Below are positions 21,030-58,221 of a stretch of DNA of 64,000 nucleotides, one piece after another. The position numbers were made by a program, and so were the translations under genes. The stretch is from Saccharopolyspora gloriosae. Lineage in GTDB: Bacteria; Actinomycetota; Actinomycetes; Mycobacteriales; Pseudonocardiaceae. Each line of letters begins with the position of its first letter. Within the stretch, counting starts at the first letter, position 1. A model generated the notes under the pieces. That model saw nothing but the letters and a program-made list of their open reading frames with translations. It was not told where the DNA came from and did not search any database. Location of the stretch: the NCBI RefSeq assembly GCF_022828475.1, contig NZ_CP059557.1, positions 1,364,001 to 1,428,000 of the forward strand, in the 5' to 3' direction.

Positions 21030-21119
21030 GCGGAACCTCAGCGGCTTGCTCGCTGCGGGATCAGTCGTCCGATCCACCGCGAAAGCGTTGTCCTCGCGAG
21101 GAAGCCGCTGAGAACCCGC
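21030..21119 (-). repeat. Structured dispersed element, copy B
   Basis: On the minus strand it reads GCGGGTTCTCAG, a variable 8-mer, TCGCGAGGACA, a variable centre, GATCCCGCAGCGAG, a variable 7-mer, CTGAGGTTCCGC. The four boxes are identical to copy A at 43545-43643; the variable segments pair with each other (CGGCTT/AAGCCG). A CGGCGAAGCCG mini-hairpin lies just 5' (about 21152-21162). Confidence 0.75.
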
Positions 21120-21203
21120 CGGTGGTCTTGTGCTCAAGCCGGTCACTGCTCATCGGCTTCGCCGCTGACAGGACAACGACCCGAAGAGCGTTGAGCCGGT
21201 CCG

Positions 21204-21749
21204 TCAGTGCTCGTAGGTGGTGGACAGGACCGCGCGGGCCAGGGTGTGGTTCAGTGCCGTGAAGTTGACGACGGCGGGAGTGACCTGGTCGTTCACCCCG
21301 AGCTTCGGCACGTCCAGCGCGAGTACCGCGAACAGGTAGCGGTGCGGGCGGTCGCCGGGCGGCGGTGCGGCGCCGGCGTAGGCGCGCTCGCCCAGGTCGT
21401 TCGGGACCTGGAACGCGCCCGCGGGCACTCCGGAACCGGTGGCGGACCCGGCGTCGGTGGGCAGTTCGGCGACGTCGGCGGGCACGTCGACGAGCGTCCA
21501 GTGCCAGAACCCGCCGGGGATCGGGGCGTCGGGATCGAAGCAGGTGACGACGAAGCTCTGCGTCTCGGCGGGGAAGCCTTCCCAGCTCAGCTGCGGGGAG
21601 CGGTTGTCGCCGCCCGCGCCCATGCCGCTGTAGACGTGGGTGAGCGCGAGCTGCTCGTCGGCGGGGGCGTCCTTCGAGGTGAGCGTGAACGAGGGGACCT
21701 CGGGCAGCAGCGAGTACGGGTCCGGGTCGGTCGGACGTTGCAGGCTCAT
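21204..21749 (-). CDS. YbhB/YbcL-type PEBP protein (Raf kinase inhibitor-like)
   Basis: A 181-aa phosphatidylethanolamine-binding-protein family member. Hallmarks in order: NRSPQLSWEGFPAETQSF, then CFDPDAPIPGGFWHWTLVDV (the DPDAP and GxFxHW motifs of the anion pocket), GYAG-like AYAGAAPPPGDRPHRYLFAV, and C-terminal GRV-like region. Bacterial members are cytoplasmic or periplasmic and of unknown role; no signal peptide is seen here. GAGGAGGAG precedes the ATG at 21749. Confidence 0.88.
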   Translation of the reverse strand: MSLQRPTDPDPYSLLPEVPSFTLTSKDAPADEQLALTHVYSGMGAGGDNRSPQLSWEGFPAETQSFVVTCFDPDAPIPGGFWHWTLVDVPADVAELPTDAGSATGSGVPAGAFQVPNDLGERAYAGAAPPPGDRPHRYLFAVLALDVPKLGVNDQVTPAVVNFTALNHTLARAVLSTTYEH

Positions 21750-22227
21750 TCGGTCTCCTCCTCGACGGGCGCGGGTGCTGGACGATCATCGGCACCGCCC
21801 GGTCGCAGCCTAATGGGAGCCGCGCGCGCTCCTGCGCGGGCGCCGGTCCACGACGAGTGGTGCCGCACGGTCACACCGCTGATGCAACCCGTGCAAGTAT
21901 TCACTTGATCGAGTTATTGTCGCTGCCCGTCCGGCTCGGGATCATGGTCCTTGTGCACACCGATCTTGGTGTCGGTGATCGTGTCACGGACGGGTTCGGA
22001 CAATTTCGCTCGGGTGGCCTCATTGCGGGGATCACCGGTTCTGCGAGCGGCACTGCAAACGGCTCGATCCCCGAATGCGAGAATCGGTCCGCCGGATTCG
22101 AAACGGTCGCAAAACGACCCCGGGCCGGCGGTGCACGTGCCCAAAGTTCTGCCGACATCGATACCGGCGAGGTCCGGATTCACCGATGTCGGTTCGGGGG
22201 ATGTCGATGCTGGGGGATAGCTCAGTC
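21750..22227. other. Intergenic region before a lone WhiJ-like regulator
   Basis: A 478-base region with lower GC than its surroundings in 21900-22200. Short open readings on both strands have no ribosome site or recognisable product. It must contain the divergent promoters of the PEBP and XRE genes. Confidence 0.4.
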
Positions 22228-23073
22228 ATGCCGGGAAATCGTCACACTTCGGTCCGTTCGCGTCAGGTGGCGGCCGAACTTCGACGTCATCGGGAACGCG
22301 CCGGGCTCAGCTGCACCGCGGCGGGTGCGCGGCTCGGCGTCTCGGGCAGCAAGATCAGCCGAATCGAGACCGGTGTCAGCGGAGTGCAGCTCGACGACGT
22401 CACAGCCTTGCTGCGGCTCTACGAAGTGGGCGAACGGGAACGTGCCGCCCTCGCGGAGCTGGCGCGCAACGCCGGCCGATCCGCCTGGTGGCAGCGACCG
22501 GCCGCCGCTCCGGCGCGCTGGCGGGACTTCCTCGACTACGAGGGCAAAGCGGTCCGGATGCACAGTTTCGAACCGTTGCTGATCCCCGGTCTGCTGCAGA
22601 CCGCCGAATACGCGCGGGCCATCATCTCGGGCATGGAACCGGGGCGTTCCGAAGAGGAACTGGACGATCTGATCGCGACCCGGATGGCGCGGCAGATCAT
22701 TCTGAGCCGATCTCGCGCGCCGCTGTTTCACGCGGTGCTGGAGGAATCGGCGCTGCGCCGCCCGATCGGCGGCCCGGGAGTGATGAAGCGCCAGCTGTTG
22801 CATCTGCTGGTGATGATGGAGTCCGATCACGTCTGCCTGCGGGTGGTGCCGCGTTCGGTCGGCGCCTATCCCGGATTGCAGGGGGCATTTCTGCTTTTGG
22901 AATATGACGGAGAGCCGGACATCGTCTACGTCGAGAACCACCACGCTTCCACTTTTCTGGATTCCGACCGGACGGTGAGTTCGTATCGGGGCGTGCTGCG
23001 CGACATCGTGCACGCCGCCCTCGCCCCCGACGCCGCCGCCGACCTCATCCGCGAAGTCCTCAGCGAGTACTGA
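22228..23073 (+). CDS. WhiJ-like XRE regulator (HTH_31 + DUF5753), no DUF397 partner
   Basis: About 281 aa. Helix-turn-helix in residues 10-65 (AAELRRHRERAGLSCTAAGA, VSGSKISRIETGVSGV), then DUF5753 with the marks LLIPGLLQTAEYARAII, MKRQLLHLLVMME and VVPRSVGAYPGLQGAFLLLEY. Start ATG 22228 has GGGGGAT nine bases upstream; ATG 22207 is an alternative. Unlike the three other loci in this window there is no DUF397 gene next to it; the next gene, 152 bases on, is the KAP NTPase-receiver fusion, which it may control. Confidence 0.87.
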   Translation: MPGNRHTSVRSRQVAAELRRHRERAGLSCTAAGARLGVSGSKISRIETGVSGVQLDDVTALLRLYEVGERERAALAELARNAGRSAWWQRPAAAPARWRDFLDYEGKAVRMHSFEPLLIPGLLQTAEYARAIISGMEPGRSEEELDDLIATRMARQIILSRSRAPLFHAVLEESALRRPIGGPGVMKRQLLHLLVMMESDHVCLRVVPRSVGAYPGLQGAFLLLEYDGEPDIVYVENHHASTFLDSDRTVSSYRGVLRDIVHAALAPDAAADLIREVLSEY

Positions 23074-23225
23074 GCGGCACCGGCCGGAAACCCGCTGAGA
23101 CCGGCTGGTGCTTTCAGGTGGACGTGGTGCGATCCCGGCCGGTCGATGCGCGGCGGCTGCCAGGGTTCCAAGGTCAACTCGGCGGGCCACCGCCGGCGCG
23201 GACCGGAAGAACACCGGGTGATCAG

Positions 23226-25034
23226 ATGCAACGACCGGCGAACGAGTTCGTGGTGCTCAGCGACGAACCGGTCGAGATCGACGCCCAGGACCTGCTCGGC
23301 GTCTCCGAGGTCGCGGCCTCCCTCGTCTCGCTGATCACCGGTTCGCGCGCCTCCGCCCCGTTCACCGTGGCCATCGACGCGGGCTGGGGCATGGGCAAGA
23401 GCAGCCTGATGCGACTGATGCAGGCCCGGCTGACCGCCGAGGACGTCCCCGCGGTCTGGTTCAACGCCTGGACTTCCGGGCCGGACGCGCTCGAAGTGCT
23501 CATCAAATCGGTGCTGCTGCGCTTCGACCGCAACGTCGTGCGCCGCGCCCACCACCGGCTGTTGCGGCGGCGCCGCGTCGTGCTCTTCGGCCGCCTGCTG
23601 CTGGCGGTGAGCCTGAGCCTGTTCGGGTTGCGGCGGCTGGTGGACGAGATCTGGGCGCACCTGTCGGCGGACGCCAAGGGCCGCGACGAGATCCGCGACG
23701 TCGTGCGGGAGATGGCGCAGGAGTGGGTGTCGCGGGGAGGCACCGGTGGTCGGCAGCTCGTGGTGTTCATCGACGACCTGGACCGGTGCTCCGCAGAGGT
23801 CGTGCTGACCGTGTGCGAAGCGATCAAGCTCTACCTGGACGTGCCCGGACTGGTGTTCGTGATCGGCTGCGATCAGGCCGCGCTGGGCCGGAACCTGCGC
23901 GACGGCGACGGCACCAGCGCTCGCGCCGTCGAGTACCTGGAGAAGATCGTGCAGGTCAACTACCAGGTCGCGGTGCCCAGCGGGGACCGCTCGCGGCGGC
24001 TCGTCGAGGGATACCTGCGCAGCACGGGCGCCTCGGAGCTGCTCGGCGAGCAGCTCACGAACCTGTTGGTGTTGCGCGCCAAACGCAATCCGCGGCGGAT
24101 CAAGCGCCTGCTCAACAGCTTCGTGCTGCAGTACCACCTGGATGCGAGGTGGCAGGAGTTCGGCGCCAACGTGCTGTTGCGGATCGTCCTGCTCCAGCAC
24201 TTCTACCCGGAGTTCCACCACCTGCTCGCGTGGCCGGACGGGCGAGATCCGGTGCCGGAGTTCCAGGGTTACGTGGAGATCCGCGAACAAGTGCGCCGCG
24301 GCGAAGTGCTCGCCGGGCACGAGTTGTTCATCTCGCTCGGGGTGAACCCGCCCGCGCCGGAGGAGGAAGGTCCGGCGGTGGTGGAACGGCTGGAGCAGGA
24401 GCTGCCGGTGTGGTACCCGCCGCTCGCCGCCGATCACGAGTTCGTGTCGCTGATCCGGGATCTCGGCGACGACGAGGGGTACGTCAAGTGGCGCAGTCGC
24501 GCGGAGTGGGAATCCGGCATCCTCCCGGGGGCTCCCGCCGACCGGAACATCAATTTCGGTTCGCCGGATACGACGATCCAGGTAGGCGTGATCAAAGGGG
24601 GCATCTTCCTTGATGGGGAGACGCCCTCCAGCGAGTCCCTCGACGGGCTGCGAGTGCTGTGGGTGGACGACGAGGTCGCGGAACCCGTTGCCGAAACCGC
24701 ATTGCACGCCGAGCGGCTCGCGTCCCGTGGTGCCGTCGTGGAGGTCGCCGCCGATCTGCCCGCGGTCCGGGCGGCGCTGCGGAAGTTCCAACCGGACGTG
24801 ATCATCTCGGACATCGCCCGCGCGGAGGCGGAATACGCGGGAATCGACGACGTGCAGGCGTTGCGGCACTCGGGCGACTACTACGGTCCGGTGATCTTCT
24901 ACGCCGCGCGGGTGACTCCGAACCGGCTGCGGCGGGCGAAGGAACTCGGAGCGGAAGGAGTCACCAACGATTCGAGCGAACTCTTCGAGTGGGTCGAGGC
25001 CGTCGCCCGCAGGCAGCGAAAAGATCATCGATGA
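23226..25034 (+). CDS. KAP-family P-loop NTPase fused to a C-terminal receiver-like domain
   Basis: A 602-aa protein. Residues 25-420 form a KAP NTPase: Walker A GWGMGKSS near 53-60, an inserted hydrophobic hairpin at about 115-140 (VVLFGRLLLAVSLSLFGLRR), Walker B VVFIDDLDRC near 178 and the KAP sensor region FVIGCDQAAL. A linker at 440-462 has a beta-rich FGSPDTTIQVGVIKGGIFL segment, like the QAG-x-GGVH linkers of actinobacterial conflict and signalling proteins. Residues 473-600 fold-match a receiver domain: LWVDDE, then VIISD at about 529, but the usual Lys is missing (GAEGVTND). KAP proteins are membrane-linked signalling or phage-defence ATPases. ATG 23226 is the first start before the conserved region; longer readings start at 23118. 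A lone WhiJ-like gene precedes it. Confidence 0.82.
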   Translation: MQRPANEFVVLSDEPVEIDAQDLLGVSEVAASLVSLITGSRASAPFTVAIDAGWGMGKSSLMRLMQARLTAEDVPAVWFNAWTSGPDALEVLIKSVLLRFDRNVVRRAHHRLLRRRRVVLFGRLLLAVSLSLFGLRRLVDEIWAHLSADAKGRDEIRDVVREMAQEWVSRGGTGGRQLVVFIDDLDRCSAEVVLTVCEAIKLYLDVPGLVFVIGCDQAALGRNLRDGDGTSARAVEYLEKIVQVNYQVAVPSGDRSRRLVEGYLRSTGASELLGEQLTNLLVLRAKRNPRRIKRLLNSFVLQYHLDARWQEFGANVLLRIVLLQHFYPEFHHLLAWPDGRDPVPEFQGYVEIREQVRRGEVLAGHELFISLGVNPPAPEEEGPAVVERLEQELPVWYPPLAADHEFVSLIRDLGDDEGYVKWRSRAEWESGILPGAPADRNINFGSPDTTIQVGVIKGGIFLDGETPSSESLDGLRVLWVDDEVAEPVAETALHAERLASRGAVVEVAADLPAVRAALRKFQPDVIISDIARAEAEYAGIDDVQALRHSGDYYGPVIFYAARVTPNRLRRAKELGAEGVTNDSSELFEWVEAVARRQRKDHR

Positions 25035-25102
25035 GCATGTCCGAACTGTCCGAAGTGGACTGACCGGGCTGCTCTGCGCGAGGGGTTTTCTCCCGATATA
25101 TC

Positions 25103-25114
25103 ACCTGATCAGGT
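25103..25114. promoter_or_regulatory. Perfect 12-bp palindrome upstream of a trypsin gene
   Basis: ACCTGATCAGGT in an AT-richer stretch, 126 bases before the protease start. The core CCTGATCAGGTA also occurs at 4034-4045 upstream of a WhiJ-like gene. A second repeat, CGATCAC/GTGATCG, follows at 25137-25156. Possible operators. Confidence 0.4.
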
Positions 25115-25240
25115 AACAACGATCGGCCGTTGTGGACGATCACCGCGCTGTGATCGGCTCTCTCCGCGACACTGTCACGAGCCGGAGGCGGGCCGGTCGT
25201 CCCGACCGCGCCGCAGGGGCTCCGGGGGATGGAGAGCGGG

Positions 25241-26062
25241 ATGACACACACTCTGCGCAGGCGAACCCGGTGGTGGTCGGTGTCGGGAGCGTTCGCTGCG
25301 GCGGCACTGGCCTCCGTCGCGATCACCGCCCCGGCCGTGGCGGGCGCCGCCGCGCCCGAACCGACGTCCGGCGCCCCGACCACCAAGATCGTCGGCGGGG
25401 AGGCCGCGAGCACTGCCGAATACCCGTGGGTCGTCTACCTCACCGACCCCGGAGGCAACCAGTTCTGCGGCGGCACGATCGCCGCGGCCGACAAGGTCGT
25501 CACCGCGGCGCACTGCGTCGCCGGCGCAGCGCCGCAGCTCACCGTCGTCGCCGGTCGCGACGACAAGAGCAGCACCGACGGCACCGAAGCCGAGGTTCGC
25601 GACGTGTGGGTGCACCCGCAATTCCAGAACGCCAGCACCGGCTCCGACATCGCGGTGCTCACGTTGGACCGGGAGCTGACGCAGACCCCGCTGCCACTGG
25701 CGAGCCGGCAGGACGCCGGGCTCTACGAACCGGGCGCGGCGACCACGGTGCTCGGCTGGGGAACCACCACCGAAGGCGGCTCCCCGTCGCGCACCCTCCG
25801 CCAAGCGCACCCGCCGATCAGCAGCGACCAGGACTGCTCCAACGCCTACGGCGGGCAGTTCGACCCGGCCGCCATGGTGTGCGCGGGGTTGCCGGAAGGC
25901 GGTGAGGACAGCTGCCAGGGCGACTCCGGCGGACCGCTCGTCGCCGACGGGCGCCTGATCGGCATCGTCTCCTGGGGCAACGGCTGCGCCCGGCCGGGGA
26001 CACCGGGCGTGTACACCCGCGTGAGCACGTATCACGACGAAGTGCAGGCCCAGCTGGGCTGA
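25241..26062 (+). CDS. Secreted trypsin-like serine protease (S1A)
   Basis: A 273-aa preproprotein. A Sec-type signal (RRRTRWW, then a hydrophobic run to about residue 36, cut near AGAAA) is followed by a short propeptide and the activation junction KIVGGE. The catalytic triad is visible: H91 in TAAHC, D136 in GSDIAVL, S229 in GDSGGP, with Asp six residues before the Ser (DSCQGDS), giving trypsin-type preference for Arg/Lys. Six cysteines fit three disulfides. Start ATG 25241 follows GGAGAG by four bases. Likely an extracellular nutrient or developmental protease. A strong bidirectional terminator follows. Confidence 0.92.
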   Translation: MTHTLRRRTRWWSVSGAFAAAALASVAITAPAVAGAAAPEPTSGAPTTKIVGGEAASTAEYPWVVYLTDPGGNQFCGGTIAAADKVVTAAHCVAGAAPQLTVVAGRDDKSSTDGTEAEVRDVWVHPQFQNASTGSDIAVLTLDRELTQTPLPLASRQDAGLYEPGAATTVLGWGTTTEGGSPSRTLRQAHPPISSDQDCSNAYGGQFDPAAMVCAGLPEGGEDSCQGDSGGPLVADGRLIGIVSWGNGCARPGTPGVYTRVSTYHDEVQAQLG

Positions 26063-26081
26063 ACGCGGGTCGATCGGGGAG

Positions 26082-26118
26082 GTGAGGCCGGGGCGCACGC
26101 CGGGTGCCCCGGCCTCAC
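26082..26118. terminator. Bidirectional terminator between protease and LysE genes
   Basis: GTGAGGCCGGGGC (26082-26094) and GCCCCGGCCTCAC (26106-26118) form a perfect 13-bp stem with an 11-base loop between convergent genes. Confidence 0.8.
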
Positions 26119-26163
26119 TGCGTCCGGCCTCGGAGTCGTCGCGCCGGATCGTTCGGGCGGCGG

Positions 26164-26790
26164 TCAGCCGGCCACGAGGCCCACGGAAATGGTGAGGAAG
26201 GCCGCGGCGCTGACCATGTCCAGGGAACGGGCGATCTTCGGTCGCCGGAGGCGGTCGGCGATCCGGGCCGCGGCGAGGACGATGGTGACCTCCCAGATCG
26301 CGGCCAGTACCAGGAACACCGTGCCCAGCAAGATCAGTTGCAGGGTGGGGGCCGCCGCGGAACCCACGAACTGGGGCAGGAAGGCCAGGCTGAACAGCAG
26401 CATCTTCGGGTTCGTGAGGTTGCTCAGCAGGCCCTGCAAGTACGGGCGGTCGGTGGTGCTGCCGGATTCCAGGCCGTCGCCGGTTTCCTTGCGGGTCAGC
26501 CACAGGCCTCGCACGATCATGACCGCCAGGTAGATCAGGTACGCGGCTCCGGCCCACTTCAAGGTGGCCAGCACCGCGGGATTGTTCGTGATCAGCGTGC
26601 CGAGGCCGCAGATCACCAGTGTCACCTGCAGGATGCTCGCCGTGTGGATGCCCGCGAGGGCGCGCAGGCCGGCGCCGATGCCCTGCCGCAGAGAAGTCCG
26701 CAGCAGCAGGAACGCGTCCACTCCGGGCGTCAGCACCACCACTGCACTGGCCAGCATGAACGCAGGCAGGGTCGTGAAGTCCAGCAGCAT
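26164..26790 (-). CDS. LysE/RhtB-family amino-acid exporter
   Basis: A 208-aa membrane protein with six hydrophobic segments. The family pattern VVLTPGVDAFLLLRTSLRQG in the first loop and GLLSNLTNPKMLLFSLAFLP in the middle identifies the LysE/RhtB translocator superfamily, which exports amino acids such as Lys, Thr or homoserine lactone. The substrate is unknown. ATG 26790 has AAGGAG upstream; an in-frame start at 26880 would add an unrelated basic tail. It lies between two trypsin genes and could export free amino acids made by proteolysis, an inference from position only. Confidence 0.88.
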   Translation of the reverse strand: MLLDFTTLPAFMLASAVVVLTPGVDAFLLLRTSLRQGIGAGLRALAGIHTASILQVTLVICGLGTLITNNPAVLATLKWAGAAYLIYLAVMIVRGLWLTRKETGDGLESGSTTDRPYLQGLLSNLTNPKMLLFSLAFLPQFVGSAAAPTLQLILLGTVFLVLAAIWEVTIVLAAARIADRLRRPKIARSLDMVSAAAFLTISVGLVAG

Positions 26791-27119
26791 GACGTGTTCG
26801 CTCCTTGATCGAGTCGTCGCGCAGGTCGTGCGCGCACGAAGGCGGCCGGTGGGCTGGTGGACCCACCGGTCGAGGTTCACCGGATCGGGGGTGATCTCGG
26901 GTCCGCGGCGTCGCGGACTCCGGTGATCATGGGCGGGGATACGGGACGAACGGCGATCGGCCGCGCTAGTGCGCCGTAGTTTTTCCCGCCAACAACAATC
27001 TTAACGAAAAATTCTCGATGTCCCATGTGAGCTCGCCCTCGTGATCTCCCGGTGACCGGGCGGCTACCGTGTGCCGCCGAGTGCGCTGATCACCAGCGGA
27101 ACGAGTCTTGGAGGTCGTC
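26791..27119. other. Divergent promoter region, LysE exporter / second protease
   Basis: No gene seen in 329 bases. An AT-rich patch at 26975-27025 (runs of T and A) stands out in this GC-rich DNA and probably contains the protease promoter. Confidence 0.45.
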
Positions 27120-27908
27120 GTGTCCGACTGCTCCCGCTCCAGGCGGCGTTCGCTCGCCCGGCTCGCCGCAGGCGGATCGGCGATGGCCGCGGCGATGGCC
27201 GCGCTGGGCGCCCCGGCGGGTGCGGATCCCGCGCAGGAACGGGTGCTCGGCGGCGCGGAGGAGAACGCCGCTCCCTGGGCCGTGGCGCTGACCGACGAGT
27301 CCGGGAACCAGTTCTGCGGCGGCGCCCTCGTCACTCCGATCAAGGTCGTCACCGCCGCGCACTGCGTCGACCGGCGCGACCCGGGACGGCTGCGCGCGAT
27401 CATCGGCCACGCCGACCTGCGCGAGTCCGGCGGAACCGCCGGCTCGGTCGGGGACGTGTGGGTGCATCCGGAGTTCCGAGAGGTCACCGCGGGCCACGAC
27501 GTGGCGGTGCTGACCTTGACCGCTCCCGCGTCGCAGCAACCGCTGCCGATGGCGGAACCCGGCGACACCGCGCTCTACCGGCCGGGAACTCCCGCTCGGG
27601 TCTACGGCTGGGGACGCACCACCGAAACCGGATCGTCCTCGGACGTGCTCCGCTCCGCCGAGGTGCCGATCAGTTCGGACGCGGACTGCCGGGCCGCTTA
27701 TCCGGAGTACGAACCGGGAACGCGGGTGTGCGCGGGAGTGCCGGAAGGCGGCCGGGACGCGTGCGCCGGGGATTCCGGCGGGCCGCTCGTCGCCGCCGGC
27801 AGGCTCATCGGCGTGGTGTCCTACGGCACCGGCTGCGGACGTCCCGGCACGCCAGGCGTTTACACCCGGATCGCGACGGTCGCGGAGGACGTCGCGGCCC
27901 GGTTCTGA
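27120..27908 (+). CDS. Secreted trypsin-like serine protease (S1A), probable Tat export
   Basis: A 262-aa protein close in sequence to the protease at 25241. The signal has consecutive arginines (SRRRSLARLAAGG), fitting a twin-arginine signal, and ends near GAPAGA; the mature start follows ERVLGGAE. TAAHC, HDVAVL and GDSGGP give the triad, with Asp before DACAGDS. The GTG at 27120 has GGAGG five bases upstream. The different signal type suggests the two related enzymes leave the cell by different routes. No propeptide of note. Confidence 0.9.
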   Translation: MSDCSRSRRRSLARLAAGGSAMAAAMAALGAPAGADPAQERVLGGAEENAAPWAVALTDESGNQFCGGALVTPIKVVTAAHCVDRRDPGRLRAIIGHADLRESGGTAGSVGDVWVHPEFREVTAGHDVAVLTLTAPASQQPLPMAEPGDTALYRPGTPARVYGWGRTTETGSSSDVLRSAEVPISSDADCRAAYPEYEPGTRVCAGVPEGGRDACAGDSGGPLVAAGRLIGVVSYGTGCGRPGTPGVYTRIATVAEDVAARF

Positions 27909-28151
27909 GAGCGACCGCGCGGTCTTCTCGGTGAGTGGGACGCCCGGCGGACGGAGGAGCGCGCGCAGGCCGGAGCTGGTTGATCTGGAATGTCCGTTTC
28001 AGCTCCGGTGCGGCGCGTTCGTGAGCAGCACTTCCCGGTTTCGGCGGCCGTTCGGACCAGGCGGCGCCATGTACGCCACCGACGTGGTGTTCGCTACTCC
28101 CATTGCAGGTGACCGCAGGTGTCGTAGCCGGAATGTGATATCCCGTGAGGT

Positions 28152-28619
28152 GTGACCCTGCAACCGCTCGCCACCGCAGTCCACCGCGCCTACACGGCCG
28201 ACCTCGACGCCGAGGACTTCTACCGCATGCTCCGCCTGCGCGTGGACGTGTTCGTGGTCGAGCAGAGCTGCCCGTACCCGGAGCTCGACGGCCGGGACCT
28301 GGAGAACAGCACCAGGCACTTCTGGATCGACTCCGCCGACGGATATGTGCTCGGCTACCTGCGGCTGCTCGAAGACCCCGACGGCACCTTCCGCATCGGC
28401 CGCGTCGCCACCGCCAAAGAGGCCAGGGGGCTCGGCCTCGGGCGCAAGCTGATGCGCGCCGCGCTCGCCGAGATCCAGCGCGCCCCGGCGGCGCTGTCGG
28501 CGCAGACCTACGCGCTGGAGTTCTACCGCGGTTTCGGGTTCGAACCCTCGGGTGAGGAGTATCTCGAAGACGGCATCCCGCACGTCGACATGCACCGATA
28601 CCCCGGTTCGCTGCGCTGA
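28152..28619 (+). CDS. GNAT-family acetyltransferase, ElaA-like
   Basis: A 155-aa acetyltransferase. YRMLRLRVDVFVVEQSCPYPELDG near the N-terminus is the ElaA signature; the acetyl-CoA loop is in GLGLGRKLMRAAL, preceded by RIGRVATAKEARG. Substrate unknown. Start is a GTG at 28152 with GTGAGGTG just upstream. A 9-bp hairpin (27970-27978/28000-28008) lies in the gap before it. The B12 riboswitch begins about 40 bases after its stop and belongs to the next gene. Confidence 0.86.
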   Translation: MTLQPLATAVHRAYTADLDAEDFYRMLRLRVDVFVVEQSCPYPELDGRDLENSTRHFWIDSADGYVLGYLRLLEDPDGTFRIGRVATAKEARGLGLGRKLMRAALAEIQRAPAALSAQTYALEFYRGFGFEPSGEEYLEDGIPHVDMHRYPGSLR

Positions 28620-28659
28620 GCCGACCGGGACGGTTCCTCGGCCGTCCGTGATCTGCGAC

Positions 28660-28835
28660 GATGCTCGCTGGTCCCAGCCAAGGCAGGTCAGGAAGCCGGT
28701 GTGAGTCCGGCACGGTCGGCGCCACTGTGACCGGGGAGCGAATCTCCCTCGCGAGCCACCGGGCGCGTCAGCGAACGCTGCTGCCTGGGAAGGCCGGGGT
28801 TCCGCGTTGATCCGGGAGTCAGGACACTGCCTCGC
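28660..28835 (+). ncRNA. Cobalamin (B12) riboswitch
   Basis: Contains the conserved core in order: GGAAGCCGGTGTGAGTCCGG (28691-28710), GCCACTG (28721-28727), a variable stem, TGGGAAGGCC and GGGAGTCAGGACAC (28814-28827). This is the classic AdoCbl riboswitch pattern. It precedes the chelatase gene by about 50 bases, so expression should fall when cobalamin is plentiful. Exact ends are approximate. Confidence 0.9.
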
Positions 28836-28887
28836 CTTGGCGCAGCCGACATCGGGGCGTCCGACACCCGAGGAAGGAACACCTGGC

Positions 28888-31017: not shown

Positions 31018-31085
31018 TTCCGATTCGGTTACGACTCCGGCCAGGCGGAGTAGGAATATCCCGACGTACTTGGTAAGGTGTGCAA

Positions 31086-35660: not shown

Positions 35661-35763
35661 ACTCGCCGTGATCGGGTTCGCGGCGGCGTGATCGCCCGGC
35701 ATGGCAAGGTGAGCTGGGCTCGCGATCCGCGAGCCGGCCGGTGAAGCGGCCTGGCAGGACGAG

Positions 35764-36978
35764 GTGGAAGACGTGACGGTCACGGTGATCGGGGTCGAGG
35801 GGGCGGAGTTGCCTGCGGGCGCCGCCGAAGTGTTGCGGTCGGCGCGGCTCGTGGTGGGTTCGCGCAGACAGCTGGACGCGCACGCCCCGCAGCAGGCCCG
35901 GTCGCTGGATCTGGCGCAGTGGGGCCAGGCGCTCGGCGCGCTGACCTCGCTGGCCGGTGAGGAGACCGGCGTCGTCCTCGTCGACGGCGACCCCGGATTC
36001 TTCGGTGTGCTGCGGGAATTGCGGGAGCGCGGCGTGCGCTGCGCCGTGACGCCCGCCGCTCCGAACGTGGCGCGGCTGATGGCTCGGCTGGGCAGGCCGT
36101 GGGACGAGGTTCCGGTCGCGGCGGCCAGCGAAGCGGCCCTGCCGCGGGTGCTGAACCTGTGCCGGGCGCGTCCGGCGGTGCTGGTGCTCGGCGGGGCGAA
36201 CGCCGGTCCGGCGCAGCTCGCGTCCGGGCTAGCGGGCTGGCGGCGCACGCTGGTCGTCGGCGAGGACCTCGGCGGGGAAGCGGAGCAGATCAGCACGGTC
36301 ACTCCCGAGGAGGCCGCACGGCGCACGTGGCGCGCGGACGCGGTGGTGCTGTGCGCGGAGGAACCGAAGGAGATCGGCGCCGGCGGCTGGCTCGCCGGTG
36401 GCGAGGTGCTGCCGCCCGCATCGGGCTGGGCGCTGTCCGAGGACGGGTTCTCCCACCGCGACGGCGACATCACTCCCGCCGAGGTGCGCGCGGTCGCGCT
36501 GGCGGAACTCGCCGCCCGGCCCGGGACGCTCGTCTGGGACGTGGGATCCGGTTCCGGTTCGGTCGCGGTGGAATGCGCGCGGCTGGGCGCCGCGACGATC
36601 GCGGTCGAGTCGGACCAGGCGCAGGTCGTGCGGCTGATCACCAATGCCGCCGGGCACGGCGTGGACGTGCGCGTGGAGGAGGGGGCCGCGCCGGAGTCGT
36701 TGCGGGCGCTGCCGAAACCGGACGCGGTGTTCGTCGGCGGAGGCGGCGGGGACGTCGTCGCCGCGTGCGCGCACGCGGGCGCGGCGCGGATCGTGGTGGA
36801 GCTGACGGAGCTGGAGCGGGTCGGCCCCACCCGGGAGGCGTTGCGCACCGCGGGCTACGAGGTGCGCGGAGTGCAGCTGGCGGCGAGCAGGCTCGTGGAG
36901 CTCGCCGATGGCGGTTCGAAACTGGAGCCCACGGCGCCGGTGGTGCTGGTGTCCGGGCGACGCGAGGCCGACTCGTGA
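35764..36978 (+). CDS. cobL: Precorrin-6Y C5,15-methyltransferase (decarboxylating)
   Basis: A 404-aa bifunctional enzyme: residues 1-200 are a CbiE-type methylase (VTVIGVEG, LVDGDPGFFG, VPVAAASEA), and residues 210-400 a CbiT-type domain with LVWDVGSGSGSVAVE for SAM binding and FSHRDGDITPAEVRAVAL. It methylates C5 and C15 and removes the acetate carboxyl on ring C. Start GTG 35764, with a GTG three codons later as alternative. Its stop overlaps the start of the CbiG-like gene by four bases. Confidence 0.92.
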   Translation: MEDVTVTVIGVEGAELPAGAAEVLRSARLVVGSRRQLDAHAPQQARSLDLAQWGQALGALTSLAGEETGVVLVDGDPGFFGVLRELRERGVRCAVTPAAPNVARLMARLGRPWDEVPVAAASEAALPRVLNLCRARPAVLVLGGANAGPAQLASGLAGWRRTLVVGEDLGGEAEQISTVTPEEAARRTWRADAVVLCAEEPKEIGAGGWLAGGEVLPPASGWALSEDGFSHRDGDITPAEVRAVALAELAARPGTLVWDVGSGSGSVAVECARLGAATIAVESDQAQVVRLITNAAGHGVDVRVEEGAAPESLRALPKPDAVFVGGGGGDVVAACAHAGAARIVVELTELERVGPTREALRTAGYEVRGVQLAASRLVELADGGSKLEPTAPVVLVSGRREADS

Positions 36979-38390
36979 TCGGGCTGTTCCCGCGCTCCCC
37001 GCAGGAGCAGCGCACGGCGACCGAGCTCGCCGCCCGGTGGGGGCCGGACGCGATGCTCGTCGACGGCGGCCCGGGGCCTGCGCTGCGTCGGCTGTGGTCC
37101 TCGCTGGACGTGGTGGTGCTGTTCCTGCCGGTCGGCGCGGCGGTGCGGCTGATCGCGCCGCTGCTGCGCGACGAGCGCACCGATCCGGAGGTCGTGTGCG
37201 TCGACGAGCGGTTCGCCGTCACCGTCTCCGGTGGGGCGCAAGCCGTGGCGCCGCAGATCGCGGAGGTGCTGGGCCGAGTCCCGGTGCTCACCACGGGTGC
37301 GGCGGTGAGCCCGCTGGACGAGCTCGTCGATCACCTTTCGGCCACTGTGGACGGTGATCTCGCCGGGTGCGCGCAGTCGGTGGCCGACGAGGAGCACGTG
37401 CGGCTGGTCAACCCGCACGGGTTCCCGTTGCCCGCGATGCCGGAGAACGTCTCGGCGCACTGCGACGAGCCGGAGTGGACCGTCGTGGTGGACGACCGGC
37501 GGCCGGTGGGGGAGCTCGGCGAGCGCACGGTGCGGCTGATCCCGCCGACGCTGGTGGTGGGCGTGGGTTCGGTACGCGGCGTGTCCCGCACCGCGGTGAC
37601 GGGGCTGATGTCCCGGCTCGACCGGGAGCACGGGCTCGATCCGCGGGCGATCCGCGCGTTCGCCACGGCGGAGGCGAAGGCCGACGAGCGCGGCATCCTG
37701 GACGCCGTGCAGGACCTGGGGTTCTGGCATTCCGCCGACGGGGAGGAATTGCCGCTGCGGCTGTACCCGGCGGCGGAGCTCGCCGAGGTCGCGGTGCCGA
37801 ACCCGAGCGCGGAGGTGCTGCGGGAGACGGGCACGGCCAGCGTCGCCGAGGCCGCCGCGTTGCGTGCCGCAGGGGAGCTGGCCGTCGGCGAGTCGGGTGC
37901 AGCACCGGACTCCGGTGGCTCCGCGACGAGCGACCAGGACTCCTCCGAGGCGTGGAAACCGTTGGGGCACAACGACATCGTGGACGAACTCGCCGTCGAG
38001 CTGGTGGTGCCGAAGCTCGTCGCCGACGGAGTCACCGTCGCCGCCGCCCGCGTCCGCCCGCGTGGTCGGGTGACCGTCGTCGGCCTCGGACCCGGCCCCG
38101 CCGACCTGCGCGCGCCGCGCGCCGAGGCCGAACTCCGCCGCGCCGCCGCCGTCATCGGCAGCGCGCACGACCTCGGTCAGGTGCGGGACCTGCTGCATCC
38201 GGGCGCGCGGACGGAGGCCGTCGACTCCGCCGAAGCCGGCGCGCGGGCCGCCGCCGAACATGCTCGCGACGGGCATGTGGTGGCGCTCATCGGGACGGGC
38301 GACGCCGCACCCCAGCACGCGGCCGTGCGCGCCGAACCCGGTTGCCGTGGCCTGAACATCGTCGTCATCCCCGGGATCCCCGCTCCCTGA
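36975..38390 (+). CDS. cbiG: CbiG-like cobalamin protein fused to a truncated CobJ/CbiH domain
   Basis: A 471-aa protein. Residues 1-310 are CbiG (cobalt-precorrin-5A hydrolase type): ALRRLWSSLDVVVLFLPVGAAVRLIAPLL, VCVDERFAVTVSGG, and the C-terminal VVGVGSVRGVSRTAV segment. From about residue 355 a tetrapyrrole-methylase start follows (RVTVVGLGPGPADLRAPRAEAELRRA), matching precorrin-3B C17-methyltransferase, but the protein stops at VVIPGIPAP, only about 115 residues in; a full CobJ domain is about 240. The usual GDPG loop is GTGDAAP here. The added domain is therefore probably inactive. GTG 36975 overlaps the cobL stop. Confidence 0.82.
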   Translation: MIGLFPRSPQEQRTATELAARWGPDAMLVDGGPGPALRRLWSSLDVVVLFLPVGAAVRLIAPLLRDERTDPEVVCVDERFAVTVSGGAQAVAPQIAEVLGRVPVLTTGAAVSPLDELVDHLSATVDGDLAGCAQSVADEEHVRLVNPHGFPLPAMPENVSAHCDEPEWTVVVDDRRPVGELGERTVRLIPPTLVVGVGSVRGVSRTAVTGLMSRLDREHGLDPRAIRAFATAEAKADERGILDAVQDLGFWHSADGEELPLRLYPAAELAEVAVPNPSAEVLRETGTASVAEAAALRAAGELAVGESGAAPDSGGSATSDQDSSEAWKPLGHNDIVDELAVELVVPKLVADGVTVAAARVRPRGRVTVVGLGPGPADLRAPRAEAELRRAAAVIGSAHDLGQVRDLLHPGARTEAVDSAEAGARAAAEHARDGHVVALIGTGDAAPQHAAVRAEPGCRGLNIVVIPGIPAP

Positions 38391-38476
38391 CAGCGGGCCG
38401 GTGAATCGAGGGTGGGGCCAACTCCACCCCGGTTCGGTGGCCAGGACGACTGTGCGGGCGCATCGGATTCAGAACA

Positions 38477-40327
38477 ATGACGTCCATGCGGGGCTGGAGG
38501 AGGCGCGGTGCGACCGCGCGACGAGGACTGGTGCTGTTCGGGCTCGCGTGGGCGGGGCCGGTGCTGTTCGCGGGGTGCGTCGTGGCGATCGTGCTGATCA
38601 GCGCCGGATTGTGCGCTCCGGGCGAACGGCTCCTGGACCGGTGTCGTGCGGCGCCGAACTCGGCACGCCGCCTCGCGGAGGAACAGGGGGTCGAGGCGGA
38701 CATCGAGTACCTGCCGGTGCCTCCGGTCCCGCAACCCGACGCGGAAGGCTGGTACCGGTGGGACGACCACCTGTACCGGCGGCCGCTGCTGCCGCACTAC
38801 CTCCAGCGCACGCTTCGGGTGTCCGCTGATCCGGCGACCACGCGGGACATGAACTGGATGCTGCTGAGCCCGTTCGTCGGAGCTCCGCTCGGGCTGCTGG
38901 CCGTGCTCATCGGCCGGCCCGCGCTGCGGCTGCACGCCCGGTGGACGGCGAGCCTGCTCGGCCCGCCGCGACCGCAGCGCGCCTGGTCGCGCACGATCCA
39001 GCAGGCGCTGCTCGACAGCTGGCGGCTGCTGGTGCTCGGACTCCTGTCCGTGCTGAACCTGCTCGGCGCGGCCGGCCTGGCCGGGACGTTCCTGCTGCTG
39101 CACGCCGTCGGGGCGCACCGGCTCTGGGAGCGGATCGCCGCCGGCGGCTCCGCGCTCGCTCGGCTCAACCGGACCGTGGCGGCGCGGTGGAGCGGCGTCG
39201 AAATACCCGAGCCGTACCGCCCGCAGCCGCCTCCGCCGGAGCCGACATCGGACGGCCTGTACCGCTGCGGCGGGCGGCTGACCGAGTCACCGGCTCCGGC
39301 GATCCGGCACGCCCGCTACGTGAACGTGCTGCGCGATCCGGCGACGTGGCGAGATCTGGCCTGGCTGGGCGCCGATCCGATCGTGACCGCGGTGCTGCTG
39401 GTGCCGCTGGTCGTGCTGACCCTCTGGGGCACGCAGAGCGTGTGGGCGCCGTTCTGGGTGTGGGTCCTCGAAACGCTCACCGAGGTGGACGTGCCGGATT
39501 CGCCGTGGCAGGACTGGTTCGCCGCGCACCGGATCACCACGGCGGCGCTCGGCGTGGCGGCCATCGCGGCGGTCCTGGCGCTGGCGCCGCCGGCGATGCG
39601 GTTGCACGGGTGGTGGGCGCGGTCGCTGCTGGCGCCGACGCGGCGGGCCGAGCTGGCGCGGCGGGTGCGGCGGCTCACCGAGACCCGGGCCGACGCCGTC
39701 GACGCCGAAGCGCGGGAGCTGGACCGCATCGAACGCGACCTGCACGACGGGCCGCAGGCTCGGCTGGTGGCGCTCGGCTTGAAGCTCGGCGCGATCCGCG
39801 TGCTGCTCGACCGGGAACCGGGGCGGGCGCGGGACATGCTCGACGAGACCGGGGACGACTCCCGCCGGGTGCTCGACGAACTCCGCGCCCTGGTGCGCGG
39901 AATCCGGCCGCCGGTGCTGGTGGAACGCGGCCTCGCCGACGCGGTCCGGTCGCTGGCGCTCGACGTCGAGCTGCCGGTGGAGATCACCGGGACGGTGCCG
40001 GGAAGATGCCCCATGGCGGTGGAATCGGCCGCGTACTTCGCCGTCAGCGAGCTGCTGGGCAACGTGCTCAAGCACGCCGAGGCGCGGGCCGTGCGCATCG
40101 AACTGGGGCATTCGGCGGGGGTGCTGCGGATTTCGGTCACCGACGACGGGTGCGGCGGCGCCGATGACGGCGGCGGCACCGGGCTGCGCGGAATTCGCCG
40201 CAGGCTCGGCACTTTTGATGGCACCCTCGAGCTCAGCAGCCCAGCGGGCGGCCCGACCCGCGCCACGATGGAGATCCCATGCGCGTTGTCCTCGCCGAAG
40301 ACCTCTTCCTCCTCCGAGACGGCCTGA
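38477..40327 (+). CDS. Sensor histidine kinase with duplicated membrane sensor module
   Basis: A 616-aa kinase. The first 410 residues contain two copies of one module: a membrane helix pair, a Pro-rich extracellular stretch with WYRWDDHLYRRP (copy 1) or GLYRCGGRLTES (copy 2), an ATxRD(M/L)xW motif, more helices and a basic RLHARWTASLLGP / RLHGWWARSLLAP end. The C-terminal third has HisKA_3 (RIERDLHDGPQARLVALGLK, phospho-His) and an ATPase domain (ELLGNVLKHAEA, GGGTGLRGIRRRL). Two ATG starts (38477, 38486) are possible and the ribosome site is weak. Its end overlaps the response regulator gene by 49 bases. Confidence 0.86.
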   Translation: MTSMRGWRRRGATARRGLVLFGLAWAGPVLFAGCVVAIVLISAGLCAPGERLLDRCRAAPNSARRLAEEQGVEADIEYLPVPPVPQPDAEGWYRWDDHLYRRPLLPHYLQRTLRVSADPATTRDMNWMLLSPFVGAPLGLLAVLIGRPALRLHARWTASLLGPPRPQRAWSRTIQQALLDSWRLLVLGLLSVLNLLGAAGLAGTFLLLHAVGAHRLWERIAAGGSALARLNRTVAARWSGVEIPEPYRPQPPPPEPTSDGLYRCGGRLTESPAPAIRHARYVNVLRDPATWRDLAWLGADPIVTAVLLVPLVVLTLWGTQSVWAPFWVWVLETLTEVDVPDSPWQDWFAAHRITTAALGVAAIAAVLALAPPAMRLHGWWARSLLAPTRRAELARRVRRLTETRADAVDAEARELDRIERDLHDGPQARLVALGLKLGAIRVLLDREPGRARDMLDETGDDSRRVLDELRALVRGIRPPVLVERGLADAVRSLALDVELPVEITGTVPGRCPMAVESAAYFAVSELLGNVLKHAEARAVRIELGHSAGVLRISVTDDGCGGADDGGGTGLRGIRRRLGTFDGTLELSSPAGGPTRATMEIPCALSSPKTSSSSETA

Positions 40328-40929
40328 CGACCCTGCTGACCGCGCACGGATTCGAGGTCGTCGCCGCCGTCTCCAGCGGACCGGAGTTGTCGCACGCGCT
40401 CGCGGCGCACCGGCCGGATGTGGCGGTGGTCGACGTGCGGCTGCCGCCGACCTGCACCGATGAGGGCCTGCAGGCGGCGTTGCGCGCACGCGCGGAGCGG
40501 CCCGGGCTGCCGGTGCTCGTGCTGTCGCAGCACGTGGAGCAGCTCTACGCGCGGGAACTGCTCAGCGACGGGGCCGGTGCCGTCGGCTACCTGCTGAAGG
40601 ATCGGGTGTTCGACGCCGAGCAGTTCGTCGACGCGGTGCGCAACGTCGCCGCCGGGGGCACCGCGATGGACCCCGAGGTGATCTCGAAATTGCTGGCTCG
40701 CCGCGCCGAGGACGCACCGGTGCGGCGGCTCAGCGCGCGAGAACACGACGTGCTGGAGCTGATGGCGCAGGGCCGCTCCAACTCGGCCATCGCGAGTCAG
40801 CTGCACATCGGCGAAAGCTCGGTCGGCAAGCACACCGCGAACATCTTCACGAAGCTCGACCTCGGCCCGTCCGAAGACGATCACCGACGGGTCCGCGCCG
40901 TCCTCGCCTACCTCGACTCCGTGAGCTGA
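40279..40929 (+). CDS. LuxR/NarL-family response regulator
   Basis: A 216-aa regulator: receiver pocket LAEDLFLL, phospho-acceptor in VAVVDVRLP, Lys in YLLKDRVFD, then a LuxR helix-turn-helix (LSAREHDVLELMAQGRSNSA and LHIGESSVGKHTANIFTKLD). The gene begins inside the kinase reading frame, so the two are translationally coupled as a two-component system. No target is evident nearby. Confidence 0.9.
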   Translation: MRVVLAEDLFLLRDGLTTLLTAHGFEVVAAVSSGPELSHALAAHRPDVAVVDVRLPPTCTDEGLQAALRARAERPGLPVLVLSQHVEQLYARELLSDGAGAVGYLLKDRVFDAEQFVDAVRNVAAGGTAMDPEVISKLLARRAEDAPVRRLSAREHDVLELMAQGRSNSAIASQLHIGESSVGKHTANIFTKLDLGPSEDDHRRVRAVLAYLDSVS

Positions 40930-41172
40930 TGTGTCGCCCGGACCGACTTCGACCACGCGCAGGTACCGACGCGAGGGCTAGCTACGTCACCTCGCACTAA
41001 TGACCCCGCCAGGCACCGGGACATCCATTCGATCAGCTCTGACCCCACCCCTGGCGAGATCCGCGACTGGCCGCAGCCGCCCCTCAGAGGTCACGGAGTG
41101 TGCAACTTCGCGAAAACCTGCGGGCAGGGCACGAAGTCGTCCACAGGTGCTGCGTCGGACGTCCGGGAGGAG

Positions 41173-41442
41173 TCACGCCATGAGGTGCACTCGGCGGTGC
41201 TGGCGTTCGCCGATGTCGCCCGCCGCGGTGTCGAGCAGTTTGTGGCCCAGTTCGAACAGCGCTCTGGCGAGCGCGATCTCATCCCCGATCTGCGGGACGT
41301 CCGGGTCGTCCGGGTGCCGCCGCGCGGTGCCGTGCCCGTGCAGCGCCCGCCCGTCGCCGGTCACCATCCCGACGTCCGCGGTGGTCTTCGCCCCCGCCTC
41401 GATGACCTGCATGTCCAATGTGAGCGTCCGGTTCGCGTGCAT
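41173..41442 (-). CDS. DUF1876-family protein
   Basis: An 89-aa protein, MHANRTLTLDMQVIE onward, with the family pattern GHGTARRHPDDPDVPQIGDE and ARALFELGHKLLDTAA. DUF1876 proteins are small actinobacterial proteins with a double-stranded RNA-binding-like fold and no known function. Start ATG 41442 has GGGAGG six bases upstream; longer readings to 41592 lack support. Confidence 0.8.
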   Translation of the reverse strand: MHANRTLTLDMQVIEAGAKTTADVGMVTGDGRALHGHGTARRHPDDPDVPQIGDEIALARALFELGHKLLDTAAGDIGERQHRRVHLMA

Positions 41443-41887
41443 GGCCGCCTCCCTGGTTCGCCTGCCCCCAGGATGCGCCGCCGTCCATCGTGCGGCAAAG
41501 CGGATCCGGCCGGTGACCGGACCGCTGCCCAGGGCGATTTCGCAGGTGAGAGAGGTCACCGGAGGTTTGACCTTCGTTCGCGGGCGGGTCACGATACTGC
41601 GGCTGACGTGTCCCGCGCCCGCACTCGGTCGCCGTTGGGCCGGTCGGCTCCCGGGACGGTCGCCAGAGATGTCCGCCGCACGCGTGGGAGATCACTTCCA
41701 GGCCTGACCTCGGCGGCATTCATGGCAGGATGGGCCGGCGCTGCGCTCCGATGGCGGCGCGCCGTCCGCGCCGGCGGATCGGATCCCGCGGGACCCTCTT
41801 CGGGTGGCGGCCCAGGCACGCGGTGAGCGTGCACCCAGGCCACGGCAACGACGCCGCGGCGACACCTCGATACGAACGACGGACGGC
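41443..41887. other. Intergenic region before the siroheme/precorrin-2 gene
   Basis: About 445 bases with no supported gene. It holds divergent promoters for the DUF1876 gene and the downstream fusion gene. No B12 riboswitch core is seen here. Confidence 0.4.
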
Positions 41888-43132
41888 ATGACCACGCACT
41901 CTTCTCCGCAGAACTCGCCCGGTGAACACCACTACTTCGCCGGACTCGACCTCACCGGGAAGCGGGTGGTCGTCGTCGGTGCGGGCAGCGTCGCGCAGCG
42001 GCGAGTGCCCCGGCTGATCAACGCCGGAGCGCACGTGGAGGTCGTGTCGCCCGAAGCCACTCCGGCGGTCGAGGCGATGGCGGAGGCCGGGGAGCTCACC
42101 TGGCACCGCCGCCCGTACGCCGAGGGCGACCTCGACGGCGCCTGGTACGCGGTGGCGTGCGCGACGGGCAGTGCGGTCAACGCGGCCGTCGCAGCGGAGG
42201 CGGAGCGCTCGAGGGTGTTCTGCGTGCGCGCCGACGACGCCTCGCAGGGCAGCGCCGTCACGCCCGCCGTCGCCGAGCACGGCGGGCTGCTGCTGGGCGT
42301 GCTGGCAGGTGGCGCCCACCGCCGTTCCGCCGCCGTGCGGGACGCGCTGGTGGCGGCGCTGCGCACCGGTGCGGTGGACGAGAGCGCGGAGCGGCCCGCG
42401 CCCGGTGTGGCGCTCGTCGGTGGCGGGCCGGGCGCCCCGGACCTGATCACGGTGCGCGGCAGGCAACTGCTGGGGCAGGCGGACGTCGTGATCACCGATC
42501 GGCTGGCGCCGCGGGAGCTGCTGGAGGAGCTCGGGCCGCACGTGGAGGTCGTGGACGCCTCGAAGATCCCGTACGGCCGCGCCGCCAACCAGGACGTGAT
42601 CAACGAGCTGCTGATCGAGCACGTGCGGGCGGGCAGGTTCGTGGTGCGCCTCAAGGGCGGCGATCCGTACGTCTTCGGCCGCGGCTACGAGGAGCTGCTG
42701 GCCTGCGTGGAGGCCGGGGTTGCGGTGACCACGGTCCCGGGAATCACCAGCGCGTTCTCCGTCCCGTCGGCTGCGGACGTACCGGTGACGCATCGCGGGG
42801 TGGCGCACGAGGTCGTGGTCGTGTCCGGGCATGTCGGCCCGCACGACGAGACGTCGCTGGTGGACTGGCCTGCGCTGGCGCGGCTCAAGGGCACGCTGGT
42901 GCTGATGATGGCCGTGAAGCGCATCGGCGAGTTCGCGGCGGTGCTGATCGAGCACGGCCGCGACCCGAAGTCCCCGGTCGCGATCGTGCAGGAAGGCACC
43001 ATGCGCACCCAGCACGCCGTCCGCAGCACCCTGGAGGAGGCGGCGGAGTCGATCCGCGACCACGACGTCAAACCCCCCGCCGTGATCATCATCGGCCCGG
43101 TAGCCGACCTCACCCCCGCTTCCCGCCGCTGA
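41888..43132 (+). CDS. cysG: Precorrin-2 dehydrogenase / uroporphyrinogen-III C-methyltransferase fusion
   Basis: A 414-aa two-part enzyme. Residues 10-160 form the Rossmann dehydrogenase domain (GKRVVVVGAGSVAQRRV) of the CysG/Met8 type; residues 175-410 form the methylase: VALVGGGPGAPDLITVRG, VRLKGGDPYVFGRG and TTVPGITSAFSVP. It makes precorrin-2 from uroporphyrinogen III and can oxidise it to sirohydrochlorin, so it supplies both siroheme and corrin synthesis. Start ATG 41888 matches the known N-terminus; upstream in-frame readings to 41804 are unsupported. Two palindromes follow. Confidence 0.9.
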   Translation: MTTHSSPQNSPGEHHYFAGLDLTGKRVVVVGAGSVAQRRVPRLINAGAHVEVVSPEATPAVEAMAEAGELTWHRRPYAEGDLDGAWYAVACATGSAVNAAVAAEAERSRVFCVRADDASQGSAVTPAVAEHGGLLLGVLAGGAHRRSAAVRDALVAALRTGAVDESAERPAPGVALVGGGPGAPDLITVRGRQLLGQADVVITDRLAPRELLEELGPHVEVVDASKIPYGRAANQDVINELLIEHVRAGRFVVRLKGGDPYVFGRGYEELLACVEAGVAVTTVPGITSAFSVPSAADVPVTHRGVAHEVVVVSGHVGPHDETSLVDWPALARLKGTLVLMMAVKRIGEFAAVLIEHGRDPKSPVAIVQEGTMRTQHAVRSTLEEAAESIRDHDVKPPAVIIIGPVADLTPASRR

Positions 43133-43137
43133 CAGGC

Positions 43138-43182
43138 CAATGACCCCTTCGCCCGGTGACACCGGTCAAAGGGAACATTCAC
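43138..43182. repeat. Variant palindrome, first after cysG
   Basis: AATGACCCCTTCGCC...GTCAAAGGGAACATTCAC, imperfect arms around a smaller perfect palindrome CCGGTGACACCGG. Immediately past the cysG stop, in a convergent gap. Confidence 0.65.
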
Positions 43183-43202
43183 TCGAGGAACCGGGTGGAC
43201 TC

Positions 43203-43246
43203 AATGTCCCCTTCGCCCGATAGCACTGCGCAAAGGGGACGTTCAC
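43203..43246. repeat. Variant palindrome, second after cysG
   Basis: AATGTCCCCTTCGC pairs with GCAAAGGGGACGTT (one mismatch per arm). Same design as the main family but a different inner sequence. Confidence 0.65.
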
Positions 43247-43303
43247 GTGAAAGCCCGCGCCGCCACGAGCTCGTGATCACGATCCCCACGCACCGGCGAA
43301 GCC

Positions 43304-43517
43304 GCTAAAGGGCGGGCGAAGCCACGCTTGCCTCGCGGCCGAAGGCCGTGCCGTGCGGCGAAGCCGTGCCTTTGGGCGGGCGAAGCCTCGTCTGTCTCGC
43401 GGCCGAAGGCCGTGCCGTGCGGCGAAGCCGTGCCTTTGGGCGGGCGAAGCCTCGTCTGTCTCGCGGCCGAAGGCCGTGCCGTGCGGCCGAAGGCCGTGCT
43501 TGTATGCGCGAAGCGCA
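43304..43517. repeat. Cluster of eleven GAA-loop mini-hairpins with 64-bp tandem repeat
   Basis: Units starting CTCGCGGCCGAAGGCC recur at 43332, 43396 and 43460, a 64-bp period, the third partial. The stretch consists of short hairpins closed on GAA: GGCGAAGCC, CGGCCGAAGGCCG, CGGCGAAGCCG, ending with TATGCGC-GAA-GCGCATA (43503-43519). It is not CRISPR: the units are contiguous with no unique spacers. Confidence 0.75.
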
Positions 43518-43544
43518 TAGCCCACGTCGAAAAGCCGCTCACCC

Positions 43545-43643
43545 GCGGGTTCTCAGTTGGTCTCTCGCGAGGACAGCTTTTTCCCTCGTGGCGGAGCCAC
43601 TCGGGAAAAAGATCCCGCAGCGAGAGACCAACTGAGGTTCCGC
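43545..43643 (+). repeat. Structured dispersed element, copy A
   Basis: GCGGGTTCTCAG, TTGGTCTC, TCGCGAGGACA, an inner hairpin (CTTTTTCCC...GGGAAAAAG), GATCCCGCAGCGAG, AGACCAA, CTGAGGTTCCGC. A perfect 17-bp outer stem runs 43552-43568 with 43620-43636. The four boxes also occur, in inverse orientation, at 21030-21119. Confidence 0.78.
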
Positions 43644-58211: not shown

Positions 58212-58221
58212 TTCGATCAGG

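Follow-up and report, generated by a model that had tools for sequence, protein, structure and literature searches.

A high-copy hairpin repeat with a covarying fold, probably a non-autonomous mobile element, in one family of actinomycetes

The window analysed here, a stretch of 64,000 nucleotides from a genome of the Pseudonocardiaceae, carries two copies of a repeat of ~200 bp that is probably a high-copy, non-autonomous mobile element of a single actinomycete family. Read in the orientation chosen by the initial annotation of this DNA, the element begins with a left end, followed by a small hairpin whose loop is GNA or GNNA, then a linker and the long core hairpin with its fixed boxes and covarying stems, and closes with a right end; in most copies of the host genome the small hairpin is multiplied into an array. 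We observed the element at high copy number, with a covarying fold, absent from orthologous sites in relatives, with its right end near stop codons and, outside the host genus, with CTAG enriched at its ends and weak inverted repeats there.

The initial annotation described two copies that share four identical boxes separated by differing but complementary spacers, each with a GAA-triloop hairpin just 5' of it. Both copies read as described: the four boxes (12, 11, 14 and 12, together 49 bases) are identical, the arms of copy 2 form six of seven pairs with C opposite C at the seventh, and the GAA-triloop hairpin precedes both cores, with one stem mismatch at copy 2 (Table 1). Three of the boxes, each taken alone, occur in the 64-kb window at a frequency near chance. 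Compared with dinucleotide shuffles, RNA folding gave -68.5 kcal/mol (z -8.0) for copy 1 and -57.0 kcal/mol (z -5.1) for copy 2, while DNA folding compared with shuffles gave z -8.3 and z -4.3, respectively. Two copies alone are weak evidence for a selected structure, the arms within the host genome falling into amplified subfamilies. The copy number, the mobility, the hairpin array upstream of copy 1 and the covariation of the inner hairpin go beyond the initial annotation. Another family of palindromic repeats, with the sequence GAACGGACCGTTCGTCCA or its complement, has 15 half-sites in the window.

Table 1. Features of the two element copies and of a second repeat family, in window coordinates.
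Feature	Position	Strand	Basis
Core hairpin, copy 1 (TTGGTCT/AGACCAA)	43545..43643	+	sequence, folding
Small GAA-loop hairpin, 5' of copy 1	43503..43519	+	sequence
Hairpin array with GAA loops, forming the upstream part of copy 1 (array-type element)	43309..43502, limits approximate	+	
Flank to the right of copy 1, reaching the opposing metG stop codon (43673-43675); candidate element end	43644..43672	+	
Core hairpin, copy 2 (CGGCTTC/CAAGCCG, short inner loop)	21030..21119	-	
Small hairpin with GAA loop, 5' of copy 2 (single-hairpin type)	21151..21167	-	sequence
Whole insert at the copy 2 site, set by the gap against relative G003	21011..21202, limits approximate	-	
Second palindromic repeat family	1846-1979, 3551-3699, 49377, 55751-55793, 56713-56765, 58164-58212		

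Exploring the host genome, we found the spaced pair GGTTCTCAG-N4..14-TCGCGAGGACA 148 times (68 forward, 80 reverse), with no occurrence of the reversed control. The covariance model search proposed in the initial annotation yielded many more copies with fixed boxes and covarying stems: a first model, built from 32 copies (alignment A1), had at least 150 matches in the host genome, and a mismatch-tolerant search of the 973 kb around the matches brought the number to at least 163 copies (77 forward, 86 reverse). The boxes are free of any mismatch in 122 of these 163 copies and the 7-nt arms fully complementary in 132, the 5' arm occurring in twenty alleles of which TTGGTCT (47), CTGTCTT (29) and TGAGCCT (22) are the commonest. 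In some of the 31 copies whose arms are not fully complementary, the arms derive from two subfamilies; such chimeras speak for recombination among copies. The leader is of the array type in 133 of the 163 copies and a single hairpin in 29, and in 458 kb all 12 hairpin arrays adjoin a core on the same strand. No strand bias between replichores was detected in the host genome (33 plus and 46 minus copies in the right half, 44 plus and 40 minus in the left, p 0.21, with the origin assumed at coordinate 0).

The element was found only within one family. Of 41 relatives, the host genome counted, 10 had matches: 6/6 of the genus, 4/19 of the rest of the family and 0/16 from other families. A broader covariance model (alignment A3) matched 80 of 297 sampled genomes of the host family, in 15 of 46 genera, and in an order-wide sample all 33 matching genomes out of 397 belonged to this family, with copies per genome ranging from one to dozens. 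Matches were counted up to a ceiling of 150 in the host genome with the first model, 92 per genome among the 41 relatives, 11 in the family sample and 8 in the order-wide sample. In the named collection, the genera among the 80 matches listed were Saccharopolyspora, Amycolatopsis, Halopolyspora and Sciscionella; NCBI taxonomy places Saccharopolyspora and Sciscionella in the Pseudonocardiaceae and leaves Halopolyspora unplaced. One exact pattern searched against viral contigs returned 0 stretches. The initial annotation knew of no described family of this kind, and our literature searches likewise found none with this pattern. Membership in an Rfam family was rejected, as neither the element in the window, searched at gathering score, nor ten loci of other genomes had a match. 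The only Rfam matches in the window were two cobalamin riboswitches (RF00174) at other places, 28689-28829 (+) and 61958-62093 (-). PMC12542641 reports predicted MITEs, as yet uncharacterised, from contigs of Pseudonocardia, and the present repeat might be among them.

The fold of the core is conserved and covaries. Copies inside one genome are kin and their cell counts are not independent events; in an alignment of one copy from each of 35 genomes (A4), 97.0% of 1251 cells pair (98.5% in the apical helix) and 21 of 36 pairs carry two-sided changes, the inner hairpin covarying too. The rows of A4 are 38 candidates, those with more than nine box mismatches having been left out, minus L270, L274 and L287. 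Its covariation score was 0.423 versus 0.119 (sd 0.009) for shuffles and at most 0.095 when slid, and none of 500 shuffles reached it; the number of pair types, the weaker one of five measures, was reached by 7 of 500. Box positions covary as well, C-G changing to G-C at columns 2/102, 10/94 and 23/82 of A4. Alignment A3, with 34 sequences from five genera, has two-sided changes in 18 of its 37 pairs, a count that used a drawn structure with the apical helix misplaced (40.9% paired). The 97% pairing, the two-sided changes in 21 of 36 pairs and the failure of every shuffle to reach the score together indicate that the fold is selected or kept by an equivalent process, which supports the selected structure proposed from two copies; rather than the lack of further copies or the loss of complementarity that would have spoken against it, we found copies in abundance and stems that pair. 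In a separate observation, cores in three genomes (L274, L282 and L287) contain inserts of ~50 nt that share a stretch resembling GGGGCGGTGG-CGGGC-GGCGGGTGGG, perhaps another small repeat.

Covariation of a palindrome could also arise as a mutational by-product, self-templating or gene conversion altering both arms at once with no selection on the fold. The host genome has features that agree with this: variable arm pairs are mostly Watson-Crick, G.T and A.C mispairs are equal in number (27 and 27), chimeric arms exist, and the right foot of the copy at 1546001 reads GAGAACCCGC in place of GAGGTTCCGC and is perfectly palindromic with the left foot, as after self-templated repair. Self-templating should, however, erase the foot mismatches G.T, T.T and T.G, which are kept in 168, 171 and 169, respectively, of 175 cores outside the host genus (15 cores having been dropped for register in the mispair counts). 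Mispairs in the long helix outside the host genus likewise argue against such an origin, 157 being G.T versus 29 A.C (101 versus 14 on distinct arm combinations, 49 versus 11 in distinct local contexts); the asymmetry is absent from the host genome and from the inner stem (26 versus 24), and it is reversed in the small samples of two genomes, G275 with one G.T versus two A.C and G150 with none versus three. On this evidence we regard a purely mutational origin of the covariation as improbable.

The loop of the small 5' hairpin is also restricted: among the 193 copies outside the genus, 115 have the exact stem, and their loop is G-N-A in 90 and G-N-N-A in 22. GNA and GNNA loops are unusually stable in DNA mini-hairpins. 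The wobble asymmetry and these loops are a hint of selection on one single strand. Given that G.T but rarely A.C is tolerated outside the host genus and that the small hairpin has G-N-A and G-N-N-A loops, we considered a single-strand hairpin transposition system of actinobacteria in which the element is moved, or made harmless, through a folded strand of one polarity, one defined end is set at stop codons, and no Y1 enzyme or reverse transcriptase is needed; we consider such a system a possibility, though an unlikely one.

Comparison of orthologous sites revealed copies that are absent from the corresponding positions in relatives. The site of copy 2 is empty in G003, G004 and G005 and filled, with other arms, in G001 and G002, while that of copy 1 is empty in G001, G003, G004 and G005 and holds a core-less remnant in G002. 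For 29 host-genome copies (458 kb) compared with the congener G003, the flanks of 27 were syntenic and none of the 27 gaps contained a model match; a few of these gaps are long and rearranged, and 14 short ones were aligned. Against G001, six of the same 29 had no flank, eight were spanned by an alignment, seven showed a match inside or close to the gap and another eight showed no match, one of the eight spanning alignments (1357711) being short and probably pairing with another copy. Absence in a relative can also mean loss.

We next describe the position of the element relative to genes, which were called with a codon-usage script. Convergent genes flank 79 of the 163 copies in the host genome, compared with 78 of 388 background gaps; 49 copies lie between co-directional genes that oppose the element, 27 between co-directional genes that run along it and 6 between divergent genes, with 1 intragenic and 1 at an edge. 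Of the 193 copies outside the genus, 56 lie between convergent genes, 84 between co-directional genes opposing the element, 36 between co-directional genes running along it and 11 between divergent genes, while 4 are at an edge and 2 inside a gene; co-directional pairs favour the opposing orientation, 84 versus 36 (p 1.4e-5). The right end of the core is usually ~37 nt (medians of 34-40 nt) from the stop codon of the opposing downstream gene, and outside the genus this stop codon lies within 25-50 nt of the core in 114 of 140 copies. Several empty sites hold a different small hairpin, one of which, in G003, resembles the GAACGGACCGTTCGTCCA family.

The excess of convergent placements, the fixed distance to stop codons, the biased orientation and the other small hairpin at several empty sites speak for a host-beneficial structured element at gene ends, be it a terminator, an insulator or an mRNA-stability hairpin, for which mobility is minor. 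Congeners do not share sites, however, the element is present in just 15 of 46 sampled genera, and copies lie between genes of apparent operons, some of them apparently essential, where a strong terminator should harm; examples of such neighbours, judged from their protein sequences, are recA-recX, murC-ftsQ, metK-priA, rpsQ-rplN and benB-benC. The operon positions weaken a simple terminator function, and a host-beneficial role with mobility minor appears to us rather unlikely.

Analysis of the element's ends drew on 193 distinct copies from genomes beyond the host genus, comprising the best model matches and the matches listed in the named scan, mostly from Saccharopolyspora and an uneven sample. 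CTAG occurred in the left end window of 32/193 copies versus 1/188 controls and in the right end window of 33/193 versus 0/190, and 13/193 had it on both sides. Inverted repeats at the ends are weak: in these 13 copies 9.5 of 20 positions are alike versus 7.5 (sd 0.37) in random flanks. CTAG is best preserved in G275, at the left end of 7/10 copies and at the right end of 7/10, and at two core-less loci of this genome the flanking CTAG or CTAA forms the end of the gene on each side. Stop codons within CTAG were found in 15/63 cases at the right end and 13/24 at the left end versus 9/166 in the background. In the host genome, CTAG was present in the right window of 9/163 copies and the left of 0/163, and TTGA stops were enriched (34/112 versus 74/806). 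Judged from these sequence patterns, insertion outside the host genus may have taken place at a stop-codon CTAG and have duplicated this target; the ends in the host genus appear to follow a different rule.

For a non-autonomous mobile element, which we consider the probable explanation, a transposase encoded elsewhere would move the element, and CTAG would be the preferred target, being rare inside genes and present at C-TAG stop codons, where its duplication would leave the gene intact. Source copies might need the fold, either as the single-stranded substrate of their movement or to keep insertions harmless to transcription, and the hairpins would be maintained for that reason. A palindromic target gives no account of why the right end, and not the left, faces the stop codon.

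A mobiliser was sought among known enzyme families, the candidates being a system of the REP/REPIN type moved by a Y1 (RAYT) transposase, or one of the retron or group II type moved by a reverse transcriptase. The high-copy extragenic palindromes with conserved stem mismatches resemble REPs of E. coli as described in PMC8266576, and Y1_Tnp matched 5 of 24 genomes, 4/10 with the element versus 1/14 without. The domain had no match, though, in the five genomes richest in the element (the host genome and G001-G003 and G018, at least 88 matches each), nor in G019 (7 matches), and the aligned copies, inspected together with their short flanks, showed no conserved GTAG tag next to the core palindrome. 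RVT_1 matched 14 of 30 genomes, 5/16 with the element versus 9/14 without, and was thus without a match in 11 of 16 element-bearing genomes, the host genome included. We regard movement by either enzyme as very improbable.

A longer autonomous relative was not found in the fetched loci; of 45 left ends, two lacked a core, one being a core-less copy and the other an unrelated sequence. A search of two genomes with the end pattern, its spacer one base too long, gave 36 and 23 matches versus 77 and 41 for the reversed control, the two best matches being core-less copies. The right foot of three host-genome copies (1233254, 5132407 and 5231210; L110, L209 and L205) is interrupted at one and the same position by an IS481-family insertion sequence, with GCTACC repeated, and L075 of G004 has a similar junction; having landed inside the element, this insertion sequence is a passenger and was rejected as the mobiliser. 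Our default guess for the mobiliser is a DDE transposase acting in trans.

Several known systems resemble the element in part. ERIC and BOX are imperfect intergenic palindromes of roughly 100-200 bp, and BOX has repeated middle modules that recall the hairpin array described here; both belong to other hosts, while the present element, compared with them by sequence through Rfam alone, has no Rfam match. HEARO and the IS200/IS605-associated RNAs are structured, mobile and multi-copy; in the genome studied here, by contrast, no Y1 transposase was found, and the element has no Rfam match. Bacterial MITEs, as characterised in PMC10969869, are short, high in copy, mostly intergenic and stem-loop forming, with inverted repeats and target duplications. 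Our element shares with MITEs of this description its shortness, leaving no room for a transposase gene, its high copy number, its mostly intergenic position, its stem-loop, its presence or absence at orthologous sites and, outside the host genus, weak terminal inverted repeats; unlike them, its interior retains fixed boxes and a covarying fold from one genus to the next, one of its ends faces stop codons, no source transposon was found for it, and no target duplication was seen in the host genus. With the REP/REPIN-RAYT system, as described in PMC8266576, it has in common high-copy extragenic palindromes, conserved stem mismatches and strand-specific features, but it is ~200 bp long and built of several modules, carries no GTAG tag and lacks Y1 in the richest genomes. 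The element belongs to a family of probably mobile hairpin elements, kin in kind to MITE, ERIC, BOX and REP and different from each in these respects.

The Pseudonocardiaceae include antibiotic producers such as Saccharopolyspora and Amycolatopsis. In part of this family the hairpin repeat occupies many gene ends. It is a probably mobile sequence whose covarying fold persists from genus to genus, and it offers a concrete example for asking what purpose such a fold serves. If the strand-specific signal holds, it would point to an unrecognised mobiliser. Insertion at stop codons suggests a route by which such a repeat may enter operons of needed genes without breaking them.
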